Positions 23,325 to 30,802 are shown, counted from the first letter of the stretch. The stretch: DNA of 34,855 nucleotides from Spirochaetaceae bacterium (GCA_009784515.1 WRBN01000009.1:1-34855); one strand, 5' to 3'. Notes: generated by a model not told the origin, from the sequence alone. Program-made: numbers and translations.

Positions 23325-23927
23325 TTATAGCCTATCGGCGGGGTTAATTATGGTATCTATACAGTTATCAATAATATTATAAAAAGTTTTATGTTCGTTT
23401 AAATCAAACTCGATACTCAGTAAATCTTCGCCTATAAAATAAAAGTCGGTAAAACCAAGCTGTTTAAAAAAATAATGAAGGAGTTTCCGTAGTTTTTCGT
23501 ACTTAGTAACTTCGTATACCTGTTGAGTGGTTAGCATAACAAGGATTTTACCACTGGGTAAGCTAGATATTTGGCCTAAACCTAAAGCGGTGCTCATAAA
23601 AAATTGCTTACATCTATCCGTAAAGGCTTTTAATTGGCTAGGCAAGTTGCCAAAATAAATAGGAGTAGCCATAAATAAAATATCGGCCTTACGCAGGCTA
23701 GCAAAAACCTCTATTAAATCGTCTGTCTCTTTGCAAACACCTAGTTCTTCTTCTGTTTGGCAAAGATAGCAAGCTTTACAGCCCCCATATTGCATATCAC
23801 CCAAAGTAAATGTGTCAATATTACATTGAACCGTACTTTTTTCGGCAATTCTATTTAAAAAATATTTACCAAAAGCTTTACTGGCCGAGTTTTGGCGCGG
23901 GCTGGCAAAAATAGCAGTAATATTCAT
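23325..23927 (-). CDS. Iron-sulfur flavoprotein-like, copy 1
   Basis: A 200-aa flavodoxin-fold protein of the NADPH-dependent FMN reductase/WrbA group. The FMN phosphate loop is ASPRQNSASKAF (residues 8-19), and ATPIYFGNLPSQLKAFTDR is the second flavin-contact region. Between them is a compact cysteine cluster Cys50-x2-Cys53-x2-Cys56-x8-Cys65; archaeal iron-sulfur flavoproteins (Isf) bind a 4Fe-4S cluster with CX2CX2CX4-7C, so the last spacing here is one residue longer than typical. Such proteins move electrons and are proposed to reduce O2 or peroxide. It has its own promoter. It is the most divergent of three tandem copies. Confidence 0.82.
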   Translation of the reverse strand: MNITAIFASPRQNSASKAFGKYFLNRIAEKSTVQCNIDTFTLGDMQYGGCKACYLCQTEEELGVCKETDDLIEVFASLRKADILFMATPIYFGNLPSQLKAFTDRCKQFFMSTALGLGQISSLPSGKILVMLTTQQVYEVTKYEKLRKLLHYFFKQLGFTDFYFIGEDLLSIEFDLNEHKTFYNIIDNCIDTIINPADRL

Positions 23928-23967
23928 ATATCTATACCTTTTTAAACACTTTAGTCAGATTAAGAGT

Positions 23968-23996
23968 ATTATAACATTTGCCGGTAAAAAAATCAA
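23968..23996 (-). promoter_or_regulatory. Promoter of flavoprotein copy 1
   Basis: On the minus strand TTGATT (23991-23996), 17-bp spacer, TATAAT (23968-23973) within TGTTATAATACT. The same 12-bp core precedes copy 2 and, nearly, copy 3. Confidence 0.7.
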
Positions 23997-24162
23997 CCAA
24001 AAATTAAGTTAATAGCAGCTAAGATTATATAACACAACGAACACATAATTTACTTATTTGTAATTAGCTTTAATATCGTTAAATAAACGTAAAAAAACAA
24101 GCCCTTTTGTGTTTTGCATAAAAAAGCAATTAAGTATTTTTATGCTGTAGTACTATAAATTT

Positions 24163-24747
24163 TTAGCGCTTAAAAGGTGCGGCCACTTTAGCTACACAAT
24201 CATCGATAGTATCGTAAAAGTCTTTACAGTCATTTAAATCAAATTCGATACCCAGTAAACCTTTACCTATAGTATAAAAATTGGTAAACCCAAATTGTTT
24301 AAATTGGTAGTGCAAGCTATTGCGTAAATCGCGATAATAATGAACATCTTCTTGTTGCTGTGTAGTTAGTAGAATAGCAGTTTTACCGCCGGGTAATCTT
24401 GTTTTTGTTAAAGAATTATCTATAGAAAGCTGCTTAAGGCGGTTTGTAAAAGCTAATAATTGGCTGGGCGTTCGCCCAAAATAAATGGGGGTAGCTATAA
24501 ATAAAATATCGGCTTGGTGTAAACTTTCAAAAACCTCCGTTAAGTCATCGGTTAAAACGCAGGCAGTGGCTTTAGTTTGACAAAGATAGCAGCCCTTGCA
24601 GCCCGAATATTGCATACCGCGTAAAATAAATTTGTTAATATTACAGCCGGCTTTATCTTCTTCGGTGAGCTTATTTAAAAAATATTCGGCAAAGGCGCTG
24701 CTGGCCGAGTTACGGCGAGGGCTTGCCAGTATTGCTATAACATTCAT
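24163..24747 (-). CDS. Iron-sulfur flavoprotein-like, copy 2
   Basis: 194 aa from the ATG at 24747, which has AAGGAGGGG upstream; the longer frame to 24777 is rejected because it runs through that ribosome site. FMN loop ASPRRNSASSAF, cysteine cluster Cys50-x2-Cys53-x2-Cys56-x6-Cys63 (within the Isf spacing), and TPIYFGRTPSQL. It is closely related to copy 3: shared GCNINKFILRGMQYSGCKGCY-like block and identical layout. It is probably an FMN/4Fe-4S redox protein. Its promoter lies at 24791-24819. Confidence 0.82.
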   Translation of the reverse strand: MNVIAILASPRRNSASSAFAEYFLNKLTEEDKAGCNINKFILRGMQYSGCKGCYLCQTKATACVLTDDLTEVFESLHQADILFIATPIYFGRTPSQLLAFTNRLKQLSIDNSLTKTRLPGGKTAILLTTQQQEDVHYYRDLRNSLHYQFKQFGFTNFYTIGKGLLGIEFDLNDCKDFYDTIDDCVAKVAAPFKR

Positions 24748-24790
24748 ATATTTATAACCCCTCCTTAAATATTTCAATCAAAACAATAGT

Positions 24791-24819
24791 ATTATAACAC
24801 TGAACCATGGGGAAGTCAA
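24791..24819 (-). promoter_or_regulatory. Promoter of flavoprotein copy 2
   Basis: On the minus strand TTGACT (24814-24819), 17-bp spacer, TATAAT (24791-24796) within TGTTATAATACT. Confidence 0.72.
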
Positions 24820-24863
24820 GAAAAAGTTAAGCTAAAATTTATAATGACTTAAGTAAAACAAAA

Positions 24864-24879
24864 CCCTTATTAATAAGGG
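24864..24879 (-). terminator. Terminator of flavoprotein copy 3
   Basis: A perfect palindrome CCCTTATTAATAAGGG; on the minus strand it is followed by TTTTGTTTT. It lies 26 bp after the stop of copy 3 and separates it from copy 2. Confidence 0.6.
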
Positions 24880-24904
24880 GATTTTAAATAAAACTTGGTC
24901 AAGG

Positions 24905-25498
24905 TTAAGGCTTAAAGGGCTCGGCCACTTTAGCTACACAAGCATCGATAGTATCATAAAAGTGTTTATGGTCGTTTAAATCAAACTCGATACTCAGTAA
25001 ATCTTCGCTGATAGCATAAAAATTGGTAAAACCAAATTGTTTAAAGTAAAAATGAAAGCTATTATGCAGGTCGCGATAGCGATGAATACCGGCTTGCTCT
25101 TGCGTGGTTAGTAAAACCAGTGTTTTACCTTTGGTCAGCTTAGATTTTTCGTTAGAAATTAAAAAGTTGCTCACATAAAACTGGTTGCACCTATCTACAA
25201 AAGCTGCCAGCTGGCTAGGGTCGCGCCCAAAATAAATAGGGGTAGCAATAAGTAAAATATCGGTTTTGTATAGGCTTTGAAAAACTTCGGTTAAATCGTC
25301 ATCTAAAACACAGTTGTCTTGTTTAGTTTGGCAAAAATAGCAGCCCTTGCAGCCCGAATATTGCATACCGCGTAAAATAAATTTGTTAATATGACAGCCG
25401 GCTTTGTTTTTTTCGGCAAGTTTACTTAAAAAATATTCGCCAAAGGCACTGCTGGCCGAATGGCGACGGGGACTTGCTAAGATGGCTGTAACATTCAT
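24905..25498 (-). CDS. Iron-sulfur flavoprotein-like, copy 3
   Basis: A 197-aa paralogue of the two preceding proteins. FMN loop ASPRRHSASSAF, cysteine cluster Cys50-x2-Cys53-x2-Cys56-x6-Cys63 with GCKGCYFCQTKQDNC, and TPIYFGRDPSQLAAF. The C-terminal region GFTNFYAI..DLLSIEFDLNDHKHFYDTID is shared by all three copies. AAGG lies about 10 nt before the ATG. Upstream is a further promoter followed by a hairpin and T-run, so the gene may be under attenuation. Confidence 0.82.
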   Translation of the reverse strand: MNVTAILASPRRHSASSAFGEYFLSKLAEKNKAGCHINKFILRGMQYSGCKGCYFCQTKQDNCVLDDDLTEVFQSLYKTDILLIATPIYFGRDPSQLAAFVDRCNQFYVSNFLISNEKSKLTKGKTLVLLTTQEQAGIHRYRDLHNSFHFYFKQFGFTNFYAISEDLLSIEFDLNDHKHFYDTIDACVAKVAEPFKP

Positions 25499-25939: not shown

Positions 25940-25988
25940 TATGGTACAAAAGGAAACTTTTTAACTTAATTACCTATAGGTAGTGTAT

Positions 25989-26459
25989 ATGCGTTGCCCC
26001 GCTTGTTTTATAGATAACGACCGTGTTATGGATTCGCGCAGTAATAATGAAGGCGATTTTATTCGCCGCCGGCGCGAGTGTTTGCAATGCGGCCACCGCT
26101 TTACCAGCTACGAAAAAATTGAGCAAAAACCTTTTAAGGTAGTTAAAAAAAATAATAAGCGCGAGCACTTTGATAGCGAAAAGCTACGCAAAGGCCTCGA
26201 GCTAGCCTTGCGCAAAAGGCCCATTAGTGCAGACGATATAGATGATATTATCGACTGGGTAACAACCGAAGCCGCCGAGCTGGGGCGAGCAAAGGCCGGC
26301 CGGGCTAAAGGCGAAATTGCCAGTACCCAACTGGGTGAGCTGGTATTAAAAAAGCTTTACGAGGTAGACAGAGTGGCCTATGTACGTTTTGCCAGCGTTT
26401 ATCGTAATTTTGATAATATTGAAGAATTTGTAGCTATTATAAAGGAAATGAATAATTAA
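25989..26459 (+). CDS. nrdR: Transcriptional repressor NrdR
   Basis: 156 aa from the ATG at 25989, which gives the canonical MRCPAC start; the in-frame GTG at 25983 is only two codons longer. The N-terminal zinc ribbon has CPAC and CLQCG with the family motif VMDSRSNNEGDFIRRRREC, and the ATP-cone follows (about residues 48-138, FKVVKKNNKREHFDSEKLRKGL). NrdR senses ATP/dATP and represses ribonucleotide reductase genes. It is directly upstream of nrdD with a 1-nt gap, so it controls the operon it belongs to; no NrdR box could be confirmed by eye. Confidence 0.95.
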   Translation: MRCPACFIDNDRVMDSRSNNEGDFIRRRRECLQCGHRFTSYEKIEQKPFKVVKKNNKREHFDSEKLRKGLELALRKRPISADDIDDIIDWVTTEAAELGRAKAGRAKGEIASTQLGELVLKKLYEVDRVAYVRFASVYRNFDNIEEFVAIIKEMNN

Positions 26460-26460
26460 A

Positions 26461-28539
26461 ATGCTAGATTGGAAAGTTTTACTAGGTCATAAACAAGAAG
26501 ACGCAACTTTAACCTACATTACAAAAAGAGCAGGTGAAGTTGAGCCCTATAACAAGCAAAAAATAGTGGTAGCCATTAACAAAGCTATTAAGGCCAGCCG
26601 TAAAGAGGCTAACCTCAAACTGGCCGAAGAGCTGGCTTTAAAGGTTGACGCTAAAGTTAAAGAACTACTGGCCGGCCGCCACAGCGGCAGTGTACCGCAC
26701 CTAGAAGAGATACAAGATTTAGTAGAAGATGTACTTATAGAAGAAAAGCACAAAGATTTAGCCAAAAGCTACATTTTATACCGCAGCCGGCGCAGCGATA
26801 TTCGTGAGGCTAAGCTAACTTTAGATGTAAGCACACTGGTAGATAGTTACCTAGACCGCAGCGATTGGCGCGTTAACGAAAATGCCAATGTCAATTTTAG
26901 TTTGGGCGGCCTTATTTTACACAATGCCGGTACCGTTACCGCTAATTATTGGCTTAAAAATGTTTACCGCCACGAAATAGCGGAGGCTCACCGCAGCTGT
27001 GCTATGCATTTGCACGATTTATCTATGTTTAGCCCTTATTGTGCCGGCTGGTCGCTTAGGCAGCTTATCGAAGAAGGATTAGGAGGTGTAGCCGACAAAA
27101 TTACCAGCAAGCCGGCGGCGCATCTTTCTACTTTAGTTAATCAAATGGTTAATTTTTTGGGTATTATGCAAAATGAATGGGCTGGGGCGCAGGCCTTTAG
27201 CAGCTTTGATACCTATCTTGCTCCTTTTATTAGAGCCGATAACCTAAACTATAACGAAGTTAAACAATGCGTGCAAAGTTTTATCTTTGGGGTTAATACG
27301 CCAAGCAGGTGGGGCACCCAAGCGCCTTTTACCAACATTACCTTAGATTGGACTTGTCCCGACGATTTAAAAGAACGCAAGGCGATTGTCGCCGGACGTG
27401 AGCAGCCTTTTACTTACGGAGACTGTGCTGCCGAGATGGCGCTGGTAAATAAAGCCTTTTTAGAGATAATGCTGGCCGGCGATGCTAATGGGCGCGGCTT
27501 TGCTTACCCTATCCCTACCTACAATATTACTAAAGACTTTATTTGGGAGAGCGAAAATGCCAAGCTGCTCTTCGAGATGGCTGGGAAATATGGCACACCA
27601 TATTTTCAAAACTTTATCAACAGCGACCTTAACCCCGAAGATGTACGCAGTATGTGCTGCCGCTTACGCCTAGATAAACGCGAGCTGCGCAAGCGCGGCG
27701 GCGGATTATTTGGCAGCGACGAATTTACCGGCAGTATCGGGGTGGTTACCATCAACCTGCCGCAGCTGGCCTTTTTAGCTGTAAACAAAGAAGATTTTTT
27801 TGCTAGGCTCACCCACGTGATGAATTTAGCCGCCGAAAGTTTACAAGCCAAGCGTAAGGTGGTAGCACGGCTCATGGAAGCCGGCCTCTTTCCCTACACT
27901 AAGCATTACCTAAAGCACCTAGATAATCACTTTAACACCATTGGTATTTGCGGTATGAACGAGGCGCTGCTTAACTTTAATTTTATTAACGCCGACATTA
28001 CCCAGCCCGCTGCTCGGGCCTTAGCCCTCGAAATTCTCGATTTTATGCGGGCCAAAATGCAAGATTACCAAGAAGAATATGGCAGCCTTTTTAACCTTGA
28101 GGCCAGCCCGGCCGAAAGCACAAGCTACCGTCTTGCCAAGCATGATAAAGAAAACTACCCGGCCATTATCGTTAGCGGCAATAAAGAAAGCCCTTACTAT
28201 ACCAATAGCACCCAGCTACCCGTTATGCAAACCAACGATATTTTTGAGGCGCTAGACCATCAAGACGAGCTGCAAACTAAATATACCGGCGGTACCGTTT
28301 TTCATTGCTATTTGGGCGAAGAAATTAAAGATTGGCAAATTACCCGCAAACTGGTACAAAATATTGCCCAAAGCTATCGCTTACCTTATTTTACCTTAAG
28401 TCCCGTCTTTAGTGTGTGCGCCCGGCATGGTTATTTAGTTGGCCAGCACTTTAATTGCCCTAAGTGCGAAGAGCAAAACCGGTTGGTTAGCGCCGAAATA
28501 ACGGCCATAAAAGAAGAGTTAGCTAAACGCAGTGCTTAA
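26461..28539 (+). CDS. nrdD: Anaerobic ribonucleoside-triphosphate reductase, catalytic chain lacking the glycyl-radical loop
   Basis: 692 aa. ATP-cone at about residues 15-110 for allosteric control, then the ten-stranded barrel. Active-site marks: SPYCAGW (Cys194), SMCCRLRLD (Cys399/Cys400, one of which would be the thiyl radical cysteine), RKRGGGLFG and GSIGVVTINLPQL. The C-terminal zinc region is present as SVCARHGY (Cys653) and CPKC (Cys666, Cys669). The chain then runs into a helix (VSAEITAIKEELAKRSA) and stops at TAA. The RVxGYxR..NWNxGK glycyl-radical loop that ends every NrdD I know is absent; it is encoded by the next gene. Without it the protein cannot carry the radical, so the two must work as a complex. 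It is otherwise full length and well conserved. Confidence 0.93.
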   Translation: MLDWKVLLGHKQEDATLTYITKRAGEVEPYNKQKIVVAINKAIKASRKEANLKLAEELALKVDAKVKELLAGRHSGSVPHLEEIQDLVEDVLIEEKHKDLAKSYILYRSRRSDIREAKLTLDVSTLVDSYLDRSDWRVNENANVNFSLGGLILHNAGTVTANYWLKNVYRHEIAEAHRSCAMHLHDLSMFSPYCAGWSLRQLIEEGLGGVADKITSKPAAHLSTLVNQMVNFLGIMQNEWAGAQAFSSFDTYLAPFIRADNLNYNEVKQCVQSFIFGVNTPSRWGTQAPFTNITLDWTCPDDLKERKAIVAGREQPFTYGDCAAEMALVNKAFLEIMLAGDANGRGFAYPIPTYNITKDFIWESENAKLLFEMAGKYGTPYFQNFINSDLNPEDVRSMCCRLRLDKRELRKRGGGLFGSDEFTGSIGVVTINLPQLAFLAVNKEDFFARLTHVMNLAAESLQAKRKVVARLMEAGLFPYTKHYLKHLDNHFNTIGICGMNEALLNFNFINADITQPAARALALEILDFMRAKMQDYQEEYGSLFNLEASPAESTSYRLAKHDKENYPAIIVSGNKESPYYTNSTQLPVMQTNDIFEALDHQDELQTKYTGGTVFHCYLGEEIKDWQITRKLVQNIAQSYRLPYFTLSPVFSVCARHGYLVGQHFNCPKCEEQNRLVSAEITAIKEELAKRSA

Positions 28540-28565
28540 CGGCACCATTTAATTAAAATATAAAA

Positions 28566-28584
28566 ACCAACAAAAACTGTTGGT
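28566..28584 (+). other. Intercistronic hairpin between nrdD and the glycyl-radical subunit
   Basis: A 7-bp perfect stem ACCAACA/TGTTGGT with a 5-nt loop, ending 6 nt before the GGGAGAG ribosome site (28591-28597). It has no T-run, so it is not a terminator. It could set the ratio of the two subunits by mRNA processing or stability. Confidence 0.4.
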
Positions 28585-28602
28585 AAAAAAGGGAGAGAAT
28601 TA

Positions 28603-29109
28603 ATGAATTTACAAACTTTATCCACCGGCGAGCTACAAGCTAAACTTAATGAGCTTGAAAGCCAATATGTAGACCCTACGGCAGAGGTATATGCCCGTAT
28701 TGTTGGTTATTACCGCAGTGTACGCAACTGGAACGTAGGAAAACGTGCCGAATTTAACGAAAGGTTAAACTTTGAGTTAAACAATGGTCAACCAAAGGCT
28801 AACCCTGCCGCTGATGACACTAACAATGAACCCTTAAAATGCAGTAACAATTTAAGTGCCGAAGCTGTTAGTTACCAGCTGTTTACCAAAGCCAGCTGCC
28901 CTAATTGCCCATCGGTTAAAAGTTTTGTCGAGGCTTTAGCCGTTAACGGCCAGCATTTAAGTGTAGACGAAGAGGCTAACTTTGCCCTAGCTAAAGCCAA
29001 AAAAGTATTGGCGGCCCCTACCGTAATTTTTTACGATGTAAACGGTAACGAGCTTTGCCGAGCTAATAATCTTAACGATTTACAAAGTCTTTTTACTAAA
29101 GCTGCCTAA
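28603..29109 (+). CDS. Stand-alone NrdD glycyl-radical domain fused to a glutaredoxin-like domain
   Basis: 168 aa with its own GGGAGAG ribosome site 5 nt before the ATG. Residues 3-22 form a helix (LSTGELQAKLNELESQY). Residues 27-57 match the C-terminal end of NrdD: EVYARIVGYYRSVRNWNVGK, with Gly35 as the predicted radical glycine, then RAEFNERLNF. Residues 58-88 are a Pro/Asn/Ala linker. Residues 89-168 are a glutaredoxin/NrdH-like fold with the redox motif Cys99-Pro-Asn-Cys102 and a cis-proline region AAPTVIFYD (Pro139). Role by inference: it supplies the glycyl radical to NrdD in trans, and its redoxin reduces the active-site disulfide after each turnover. The reading frame equals that of nrdD, but two TAA codons and 63 bp lie between. 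The Cys that precedes EVYSR in many NrdD proteins is Ala27 here. Confidence 0.85.
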   Translation: MNLQTLSTGELQAKLNELESQYVDPTAEVYARIVGYYRSVRNWNVGKRAEFNERLNFELNNGQPKANPAADDTNNEPLKCSNNLSAEAVSYQLFTKASCPNCPSVKSFVEALAVNGQHLSVDEEANFALAKAKKVLAAPTVIFYDVNGNELCRANNLNDLQSLFTKAA

Positions 29110-29145: not shown

Positions 29146-29541
29146 ATGCAAACATTCTGGAGAGATGTTTTAAAAATTGGTTTTGATGATATTGACGACC
29201 AACACAAGGTATTAGTTGGTTATTTAGATAAAATGGTAGCTGCCAAGGCCAACGATGCCGAAGAAGTTAAAGCGGTTTTAACTGGGCTGGAAGAATATGT
29301 AAATTATCATTTTAGTTACGAAGAGGCCAAACTTGCCGCCGCCGGTTTTGTAAAGCTGGAAGAACATAAAAAAGAGCACAAAAACTTTGCCCTTGCTGTA
29401 CAAGCTAAAGTAAGTGAGTACCAAAACAGTAACTACGACGTGGACGAAATGGTTACCTTTTTAAAGGAATGGCTGGTTAAGCATATTATGGTTAAGGACC
29501 GTATTTGGGCTAAGTATTTATTAGAACAAGCTAAGAATTAG
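29146..29541 (+). CDS. Bacteriohemerythrin, copy 1
   Basis: A 131-aa single-domain hemerythrin. All seven di-iron ligands can be placed: His20 (DDQHKVL), His55 and Glu59 (YHFSYEE), His74 and His78 (EEHKKEH), His113 and Asp118 (HIMVKD). Proteins of this kind bind O2 reversibly at a non-haem di-iron site and may store, deliver or remove it. It lies 36 nt after the glycyl-radical subunit gene with a good AAAGGAG site, so it is probably part of the nrd operon. It is a paralogue of the 29717 gene: both start MQT(F/L)W and end with LLEQ(A/T)K. Confidence 0.92.
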   Translation: MQTFWRDVLKIGFDDIDDQHKVLVGYLDKMVAAKANDAEEVKAVLTGLEEYVNYHFSYEEAKLAAAGFVKLEEHKKEHKNFALAVQAKVSEYQNSNYDVDEMVTFLKEWLVKHIMVKDRIWAKYLLEQAKN

Positions 29542-29716: not shown

Positions 29717-30115
29717 ATGCAAACACTTTGGAGCGATGTTTTAAATGTTGGTTTTGGTGATATGGACGACCAACACAAGGTGCTAGTAAATTATTTAGAC
29801 CAACTTGTAAATGAAGGGCAAGAAAGAGGGGCTGAAGCCATTGCCACAATCCTAGCGGGGCTAGGGGCTTATGTAGGATACCATTTTAGCTATGAAGAAA
29901 AACAGATGGACGAGTTTAACTATCCGGACAGTGCAAAACATAAAAAAGAGCACGAAAACTTTGGTGTTCAGGTAGCGGCCGCCTTAGAAAAATATAAGGG
30001 GGGCGAATTTAGCCTAGACGAACTTATTGCCTTTTTAAAAAATTGGTTGGTTAAGCACATTCTGGTGCGCGACCGTATTTTAGCCACTTATTTGCTTGAG
30101 CAAACTAAGGCTTAA
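29717..30115 (+). CDS. Bacteriohemerythrin, copy 2
   Basis: A 132-aa hemerythrin with all ligand positions kept: His20 (DDQHKVL), YHFSYEE for His and Glu, KHKKEH for the His pair, and HILVRD for the last His and Asp. It differs from copy 1 mostly in the loop around residues 30-40 and in the helix before HxxxH (FNYPDS). GAGGAG precedes the ATG, and a strong promoter is 70-100 bp upstream. It ends 12 nt before the NrdG-type activase gene, so the two are co-transcribed. O2 capture next to a glycyl-radical activase suggests a protective role. Confidence 0.92.
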   Translation: MQTLWSDVLNVGFGDMDDQHKVLVNYLDQLVNEGQERGAEAIATILAGLGAYVGYHFSYEEKQMDEFNYPDSAKHKKEHENFGVQVAAALEKYKGGEFSLDELIAFLKNWLVKHILVRDRILATYLLEQTKA

Positions 30116-30127
30116 TTTTTAGTAAAA

Positions 30128-30802
30128 ATGATACAAGCCAGCTTACTTAAAAATAGCTTCTCAGATTACCCATCTTTGTTAAGCTGCGTGCTATTTTTAG
30201 CTGGCTGTAATATGCGCTGCCCCTATTGCCATAACAGCCAGCTGGCTTTAAATACCGAAACAAATTTAGAAGAATGGCCGGTTATCTACCAATTTTTAAA
30301 GGCTAGGGCCGGGCAGCTGCAAGGGGTAGTCCTTAGCGGCGGCGAGGCCTTACTTAACCCCTATTTACCCGAAATTGCCCATCAAATTAAAGCTTTGGGT
30401 TACCGGCTAAAAGCCGATACCAACGGTACCCTGCCTAAACAGCTGCTTACTTTATTACCATACCTAGATTACGTAGCTGTAGATATAAAAACAGCGGAGC
30501 ATTTGGCTTTAACCGGCTTAAATGATGAGCCTGTTTGGCAAAGCCTTAACTTGCTTAACCAAAGCGAGGTAAGCTTTGAGGTAAGGGCTGTGGTATCGCC
30601 CCATTTTTGTGGCGAGGTTCAGCTAACAACGGCGCTTAAACATATTAAGGCCGGCCGGGCTTTAGGGCTGCGGTTATTGCCTTTTAGGCCAATTAATTGC
30701 TTAGATGACAGCTTTAATAACTTACCGGCCACTAACGATAGCTACTTAGCCAAACTTAAAACTTTTATTGAAACCGAAGGGGTAAAGGCGCTGGGTTGTT
30801 AG
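30128..30802 (+). CDS. nrdG: Radical-SAM activase of the anaerobic ribonucleotide reductase (NrdG2-like)
   Basis: A 224-aa radical-SAM protein. The 4Fe-4S motif is GCNMRCPYCHN (CxxxCxxC, Cys27, 31 and 34), followed by VVLSGGEALLNP, the SAM-contact GGE motif, then ADTNGT and YVAVDIKT. The N-terminus SLLKNSFSDYPSLLSCVLF corresponds to the form found in the second NrdG subtype (NrdG2), which is longer than E. coli NrdG. It would create the glycyl radical on Gly35 of the 28603-29109 product. No Shine-Dalgarno site is clear, so coupling to the hemerythrin gene 12 nt upstream is likely. It overlaps the convergent gene by 4 bp. Confidence 0.85.
   Translation: MIQASLLKNSFSDYPSLLSCVLFLAGCNMRCPYCHNSQLALNTETNLEEWPVIYQFLKARAGQLQGVVLSGGEALLNPYLPEIAHQIKALGYRLKADTNGTLPKQLLTLLPYLDYVAVDIKTAEHLALTGLNDEPVWQSLNLLNQSEVSFEVRAVVSPHFCGEVQLTTALKHIKAGRALGLRLLPFRPINCLDDSFNNLPATNDSYLAKLKTFIETEGVKALGC

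Follow-up and report, generated by a model that had tools for sequence, protein, structure and literature searches.

A probable two-chain class III ribonucleotide reductase with its glycyl radical on a separate small subunit

To our knowledge, the radical glycine sits on the large catalytic protein itself in all class III (anaerobic) ribonucleotide reductases described so far. Published analyses place the glycyl-radical domain at the C-terminus of NrdD (PMC9669993, PMC9531940), and in such one-chain enzymes this domain must flip away from the core to reach NrdG (PMC12662201). The thiol-using type, NrdD2, is defined by a third active-site cysteine and a glutamate, a methionine being optional (PMC4493059); where the methionine occurs together with the double cysteine and the glutamate, formate and thioredoxin are both thought possible as reductants (PMC9669993). 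A single grx::nrdD fusion is listed in PMC6187632, and no account of how widespread this fusion is was found in the literature. In class I, the fused redoxin of the Facklamia Grx::NrdB has been shown to reduce the enzyme (PMC6187632), and of the glycyl-radical spare parts such as YfiD, only those for pyruvate formate-lyase have been validated so far (PMC8683613). A search of mainly open-access literature found no description of a split or two-chain class III reductase, and the initial annotation of the DNA studied here had likewise named none.

This DNA (the window) is a stretch of 34,855 nt from a Spirochaetaceae bacterium (GCA_009784515.1, WRBN01000009.1:1-34855). On its plus strand, nrdR, the regulator of ribonucleotide reductase genes (25983-26459; TIGR00244, 171 bits), is followed after 1 nt by nrdD (26461-28539), and nrdR is placed likewise in nearly all relatives with the split described below. 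The nrdD product (692 aa) contains an ATP-cone (PF03477), the catalytic barrel and the zinc site, but no glycyl-radical loop, and ends 23 aa past C666-P-K-C669 of the zinc-site region (Cys653 to Cys669, 28417-28467), which is conserved. A second gene on the same strand (28603-29109) encodes a protein of 168 aa consisting of an N-terminal helix, the glycyl-radical segment, a linker and a redoxin.

The two genes share a reading frame in the window, with 714 codons from start to start, and are separated by 63 nt (28540-28602). The TAA that ends nrdD (28537-28539) is followed by a second in-frame TAA (28561-28563), and the small gene has its own ribosome site (AGGGAG, 28590-28595) ahead of its ATG at 28603. 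The initial annotation had described an nrdD that stops after its CPKC, with a Gly35 loop and a CPNC domain on a separate gene beyond two stop codons and a new ribosome site; coordinates, sizes and residues all agree with this description. A 7-bp hairpin (ACCAACA-aaaac-TGTTGGT, 28566-28584; folding z-score -1.5) lies just 5' of the ribosome site.

The region covered by the initial annotation ends at the small gene. The gene cluster itself also includes the upstream nrdR and nrdG2 (30128-30802, plus strand), which encodes the radical-SAM activase for the glycyl radical (TIGR02495, 150 bits, above cut-off). Two tandem bacteriohemerythrin genes (29146-29541 and 29717-30115) lie between the small gene and nrdG2, whereas in the relatives that were read nrdG directly follows the small gene; these are oxygen-binding proteins within the cluster of an oxygen-sensitive enzyme. 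On the minus strand, 23325-25498 holds three tandem paralogues predicted to be of the flavodoxin-like/NADPH-dependent FMN reductase type, with an ASPR.NSAS start and a CxxCYxCQ motif. An NrdR box scan of the window gave a single match, at chance level and far from the cluster, and the results of promoter and terminator scans were also at chance level.

The Pfam NRDD profile (PF13597, 562 positions) is cut in two by this arrangement. Positions 1-532 match NrdD (E 2e-171; NF006126, 1062 bits), and positions 533-562 match residues 27-57 of the small protein (28681-28773; E 1e-6, above the gathering cut-off). The class III order of zinc site followed by radical loop on one chain is thus divided, the zinc site lying in NrdD and the loop on a separate gene product. 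In NrdD, the beta-A active-site cysteine Cys194 (27040-27042) and the finger loop Met398-Cys399-Cys400-Arg401 (27652-27663; SMCCRL, a motif interpreted according to PMC9669993) are kept in every split and fused row of the alignment, and Glu547 (28099-28101), the active-site glutamate of the thiol-reductant subtype placed by alignment to T. maritima NrdD, in every split row; one row labelled as split in this count (L012) is a standard NrdD. To judge from its residues, the double cysteine of MCCR (398-401) together with Glu547, the protein fits the NrdD2 subtype. In the small protein, Gly35 (28705-28707, in ARIVGYYR) is invariant in 33/33 aligned sequences.

At the sequence level, the redoxin part of the small protein (28852-29106) gives a weak match that falls short of the Pfam cut-off (Glutaredoxin, E 0.004). 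In an AlphaFold model, residues 84-165 mostly have pLDDT above 90 (about 95-98) in the order beta-alpha-beta-alpha-beta-beta-alpha, and thioredoxins are the top Foldseek matches (E 6e-5). As modelled, this domain is a thioredoxin fold with CPxC and cis-Pro, and Cys99 and Cys102 of its CPNC motif and Pro139 are, like Gly35, invariant in all 33 small proteins. A phmmer search with the small protein also matched designed PPR proteins, and these matches were rejected as repeat artefacts.

These data support a functional two-chain class III reductase in which the glycyl radical acts in trans on the small subunit, a reading to which a probability of about 0.86 is assigned and which had been proposed in the initial annotation. 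The redoxin is the likely electron donor of this enzyme. Support for such a role comes from the one-chain fused homologues of Clostridia type, where a thioredoxin reductase gene directly follows the fused gene in seven of the 14 loci with downstream sequence. A thioredoxin reductase is also encoded in the window's own genome. Locus L004 (G000:C53) of this genome encodes an AhpF-like thioredoxin reductase with an N-terminal redoxin, adjoining AhpC and a Fur-like gene, and is a possible alternative electron source.

The enzyme could also be two-chain as described but reduced by formate or free thioredoxin, with the fused redoxin serving regulation or radical protection. Met398 of the MCCR loop fits a formate mechanism (PMC9669993), many split genomes contain a PFL-type enzyme, and one genus (g25; L112-L114) has kept the split but lost the redoxin. 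The small protein of this genus has about 95 aa, comprising only the helix and the radical segment, and its gene adjoins nrdG far from nrdRD, representing a minimal glycyl-radical subunit; the three genomes concerned also hold a class I/II-type reductase. The radical segment, and not the redoxin, is therefore the indispensable part. Nevertheless, the invariance of CPxC and cis-Pro in all 33 small proteins, the fit of Glu547 and the double cysteine to a thiol reductant (PMC4493059, PMC9669993), the thioredoxin reductase genes adjoining the fused homologues and the lack of a PFL-type enzyme as formate source in the window's genome make another reductant unlikely.

The genome of the window (1.83 Mb, 95% complete) contains no NRDD matches beyond the two described and no second full-length nrdD, no class I/II ribonucleotide reductase catalytic subunit was found in it, and no protein matches the PF01228 glycyl-radical domain (e.g. 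pyruvate formate-lyase). A completeness of 95% leaves some room for a missed second reductase. Class I/II reductases are, however, absent from 25 of the 60 split genomes tested, the window's included, and one of the 25 is a single contig of 2.66 Mb. De novo synthesis of deoxynucleotides requires a reductase, and since the pair is the only one found in these 25 genomes, the split enzyme almost certainly works in these organisms. The initial annotation would have been contradicted by a second full-length nrdD accompanied by decay of the pair in relatives; there is no second copy, and the pair is conserved.

The same genome data bear on the idea that the small protein serves chiefly as a spare of the GrcA/YfiD kind, with NrdD normally obtaining its radical elsewhere. 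It is indeed a small separate glycyl-radical protein, and the possibility of spare parts has been raised for other glycyl-radical enzymes (PMC8683613). NrdD itself, however, lacks a radical loop, the window's genome contains neither a second NRDD nor a Gly_radical domain, and the small protein gives no match to PF01228, the Gly_radical family. As neither NrdD nor the rest of the genome offers another radical domain, the small protein is regarded as an obligate part, and a role confined to that of a spare is very improbable.

The split is not confined to the window. A contig scan of GTDB genomes detected it in two Spirochaetes MAGs (L005 and L006), and relatives of the small protein occur in 247 of 395 sampled genomes of the window's class. 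At least 120 of these, by count of the rows listed, are encoded either by a free-standing frame of about 150-250 aa or by one that overlaps nrdD; others are long fused frames. The initial annotation had proposed a search for proteins joining a radical segment to a redoxin and lying beside a truncated nrdD; nrdD and the small gene are adjacent in 34 loci read one by one, the window among them, nearly all in the order nrdR-nrdD-small-nrdG. With five unlinked loci, 39 split loci were read (38 beyond the window); they come from the two named MAGs and from about 19 family groups within the class of the window. A full listing of 34 genomes gave 33 NrdDs that break off at profile position 528-538, paired one-to-one with 33 separate radical domains. 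The split class III reductase is widespread but, judging by the mainly open-access literature searched, apparently undescribed.

No split form was found in 341 genomes of the Clostridia class, about 57 of which have the fused form. No relative was found on plasmids, and among phages a single record carries a bacterial-type fused operon. This unannotated record (MT835493.1, a human faecal 'Bacteriophage sp.'; L120) holds a bacterial-type cluster of nrdG, fused nrdD-redoxin and thioredoxin reductase near an integrase-like gene.

In five single-contig genomes nrdD is far from the small gene; in one of them the two lie about 308 kb apart on opposite strands. In the unlinked loci that were read, nrdR is beside nrdD and nrdG is beside the small gene. 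With this arrangement, neither read-through nor frameshifting nor assembly error can be the general explanation, and the small protein is shown to act in trans. Joint translation of both genes by stop read-through or frameshifting, which would leave the enzyme a single chain, is compatible with the window, where both genes are in one frame, as they are in 10 of 32 linked relatives for which this was measured. Across the linked loci, however, the gaps range from -23 to +164 nt, each of the three possible frame relations is found, and every small gene begins with a ribosome site and start codon of its own; together with the separate chromosomal locations of the two genes in five genomes, this makes joint translation extremely improbable. 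The notion of one ordinary nrdD-redoxin gene broken by a sequencing error or a real pseudogenising mutation, for which the shared frame (714 codons) and the existence of the fused gene in other bacteria might speak, can be practically dismissed in view of the two in-frame TAA codons and the new ribosome site, the recurrence of the split in dozens of genomes with differing frame relations, the unlinked genes in complete genomes, the status of the pair as sole reductase in 25 genomes and the invariance of Gly35, Cys99, Cys102 and Pro139. Assembly error and decay were accordingly rejected, in agreement with the earlier argument that a single base error would be insufficient. The recurrence in dozens of genomes and the invariant residues of the small proteins also exclude an arrangement arisen by chance.

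The split forms also differ from other NrdDs at the break itself. In the fused and most standard NrdDs, the radical segment lies within a few residues of the zinc site (CPxC-G-xTEVYSRIVGYYR), whereas every split form has a tail of 21-39 residues after the CPxC of NrdD and about 25 residues ahead of the radical segment in the small protein. In the window both extensions are predicted helices, one at NrdD residues 667-691 (28468-28536 for the part 3' of the zinc site; pLDDT about 94) and one at residues 8-22 of the small protein (28624-28668; pLDDT 80-90). The NrdD tail helix is absent from the fused and most standard NrdDs, and the N-terminal helix of the small protein from the fused forms, so that the new helices of the initial annotation are confirmed and mark the split form alone. 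The junction looks as though a helical hairpin had been added between the zinc site and the radical segment, with the chain cut at the hairpin tip. The added helices may form the dock between NrdD and the small subunit, although their amphipathicity compared with shuffled sequences was weak (z 0.2 for the tail, 0.9 for the N-terminal helix).

The window was also modelled as a single chain, read through with TAA as Gly (a modelling device) and aligned with natural fused chains. The model had a pTM of 0.74, with the radical segment and the two helices predicted confidently and the finger loop below pLDDT 50. Foldseek confirmed the NrdD fold, with high rmsd where the cone and the radical domain were included.

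In a tree of 63 NrdDs, the split and fused forms constitute one fully supported clade, within which family f8 of the window's class (fused) branches first, followed by f27/f31 (fused) and then the split forms. The tree requires four state changes, compared with 23 for shuffled labels, and the two Spirochaetes MAGs sit within the split group, from which the class of the window is taken to be probably Spirochaetia. The branching order suggests a path from a standard NrdD through an NrdD-radical loop-redoxin fusion to the split with a helix on each side. Within the split group or next to it are also a fused form (L104), which would represent a re-fusion, and two standard forms lacking the redoxin (L060 and L068), which would represent losses. 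The possible re-fusion in L104 (G025, family f25) is without the helical hairpin.

In the proposed mechanism, NrdD would supply the ATP-cone, the catalytic barrel (Cys194, Met398-Cys399-Cys400 and Glu547) and the zinc site, and the small subunit the Gly35 glycyl radical and, in most species, the thioredoxin-fold domain. NrdG would generate the radical on Gly35. A separate radical subunit could simply leave, or dock differently, to meet NrdG, which fits with the retention of nrdG beside the small gene in the unlinked loci. The small subunit would bind NrdD, probably through the C-terminal helix of NrdD and its own N-terminal helix, whereupon the radical loop would enter the barrel and Gly35 would oxidise the cysteine of the finger loop. 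The active-site disulfide left by each turnover would be reduced by the CPNC redoxin, which a thioredoxin reductase would recharge in turn. The electron path and the docking by helices are inferred, as would be any exchange of damaged subunits. More tentatively, and with some doubt, the small subunit may be an exchangeable 'radical cartridge' that is charged by NrdG and moves in and out of NrdD, such that after oxygen cleavage at Gly35 only the 18-kDa part would be replaced.

If this last proposal is true, a class III reductase has evolved a two-component design like that of class I, the second component supplying both radical and reductant. The two-chain enzyme implies that much of a bacterial class has moved the radical glycine to a separate protein, and in many species the split pair is the only route to deoxynucleotides that was found. 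In such a naturally occurring enzyme, the installation of the radical, its transfer and the re-reduction could be separated by mixing two proteins, and the exchange or repair of a glycyl-radical subunit would become testable. It is also a likely problem for annotation, as the large gene resembles a truncation and the small gene a stray thioredoxin.

Compared with known systems, the small subunit resembles GrcA/YfiD in being a small separate protein with a glycyl-radical domain working in trans. GrcA/YfiD, however, belongs to PF01228, has no redoxin and repairs a complete but damaged pyruvate formate-lyase, whereas the host enzyme here has no radical domain. In the class I enzymes with Grx::NrdB of Facklamia ignava and Francisella, as here, the radical subunit is distinct from the catalytic subunit and bears a redoxin, but NrdB is a metal-dependent radical subunit unrelated to glycyl-radical domains, making it an analogue only. 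The split class II NrdJa/NrdJb offers another case of a one-chain class divided in two, with an extra domain ending the catalytic chain (PMC9669993); this is a cobalamin enzyme, and its small chain consists of zinc-finger/IscU-like domains without a radical.

Among class III enzymes, NrdD2 of T. maritima and N. bacilliformis shares with the present enzyme the barrel, ATP-cone, zinc site, beta-A cysteine, double-cysteine finger loop, glutamate and NrdG partner, but here the radical domain is separate and joined to a redoxin, with a helix on each side of the break. The fusion of NrdD, glycyl loop and redoxin seen in Clostridia and in some relatives (L007, L103-L108 and L120) has the same domains in the same order and, according to the tree, is likely to be the ancestral form. 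It differs from the enzyme of the window in being one chain without junction helices, and its gene is often followed by that of thioredoxin reductase.
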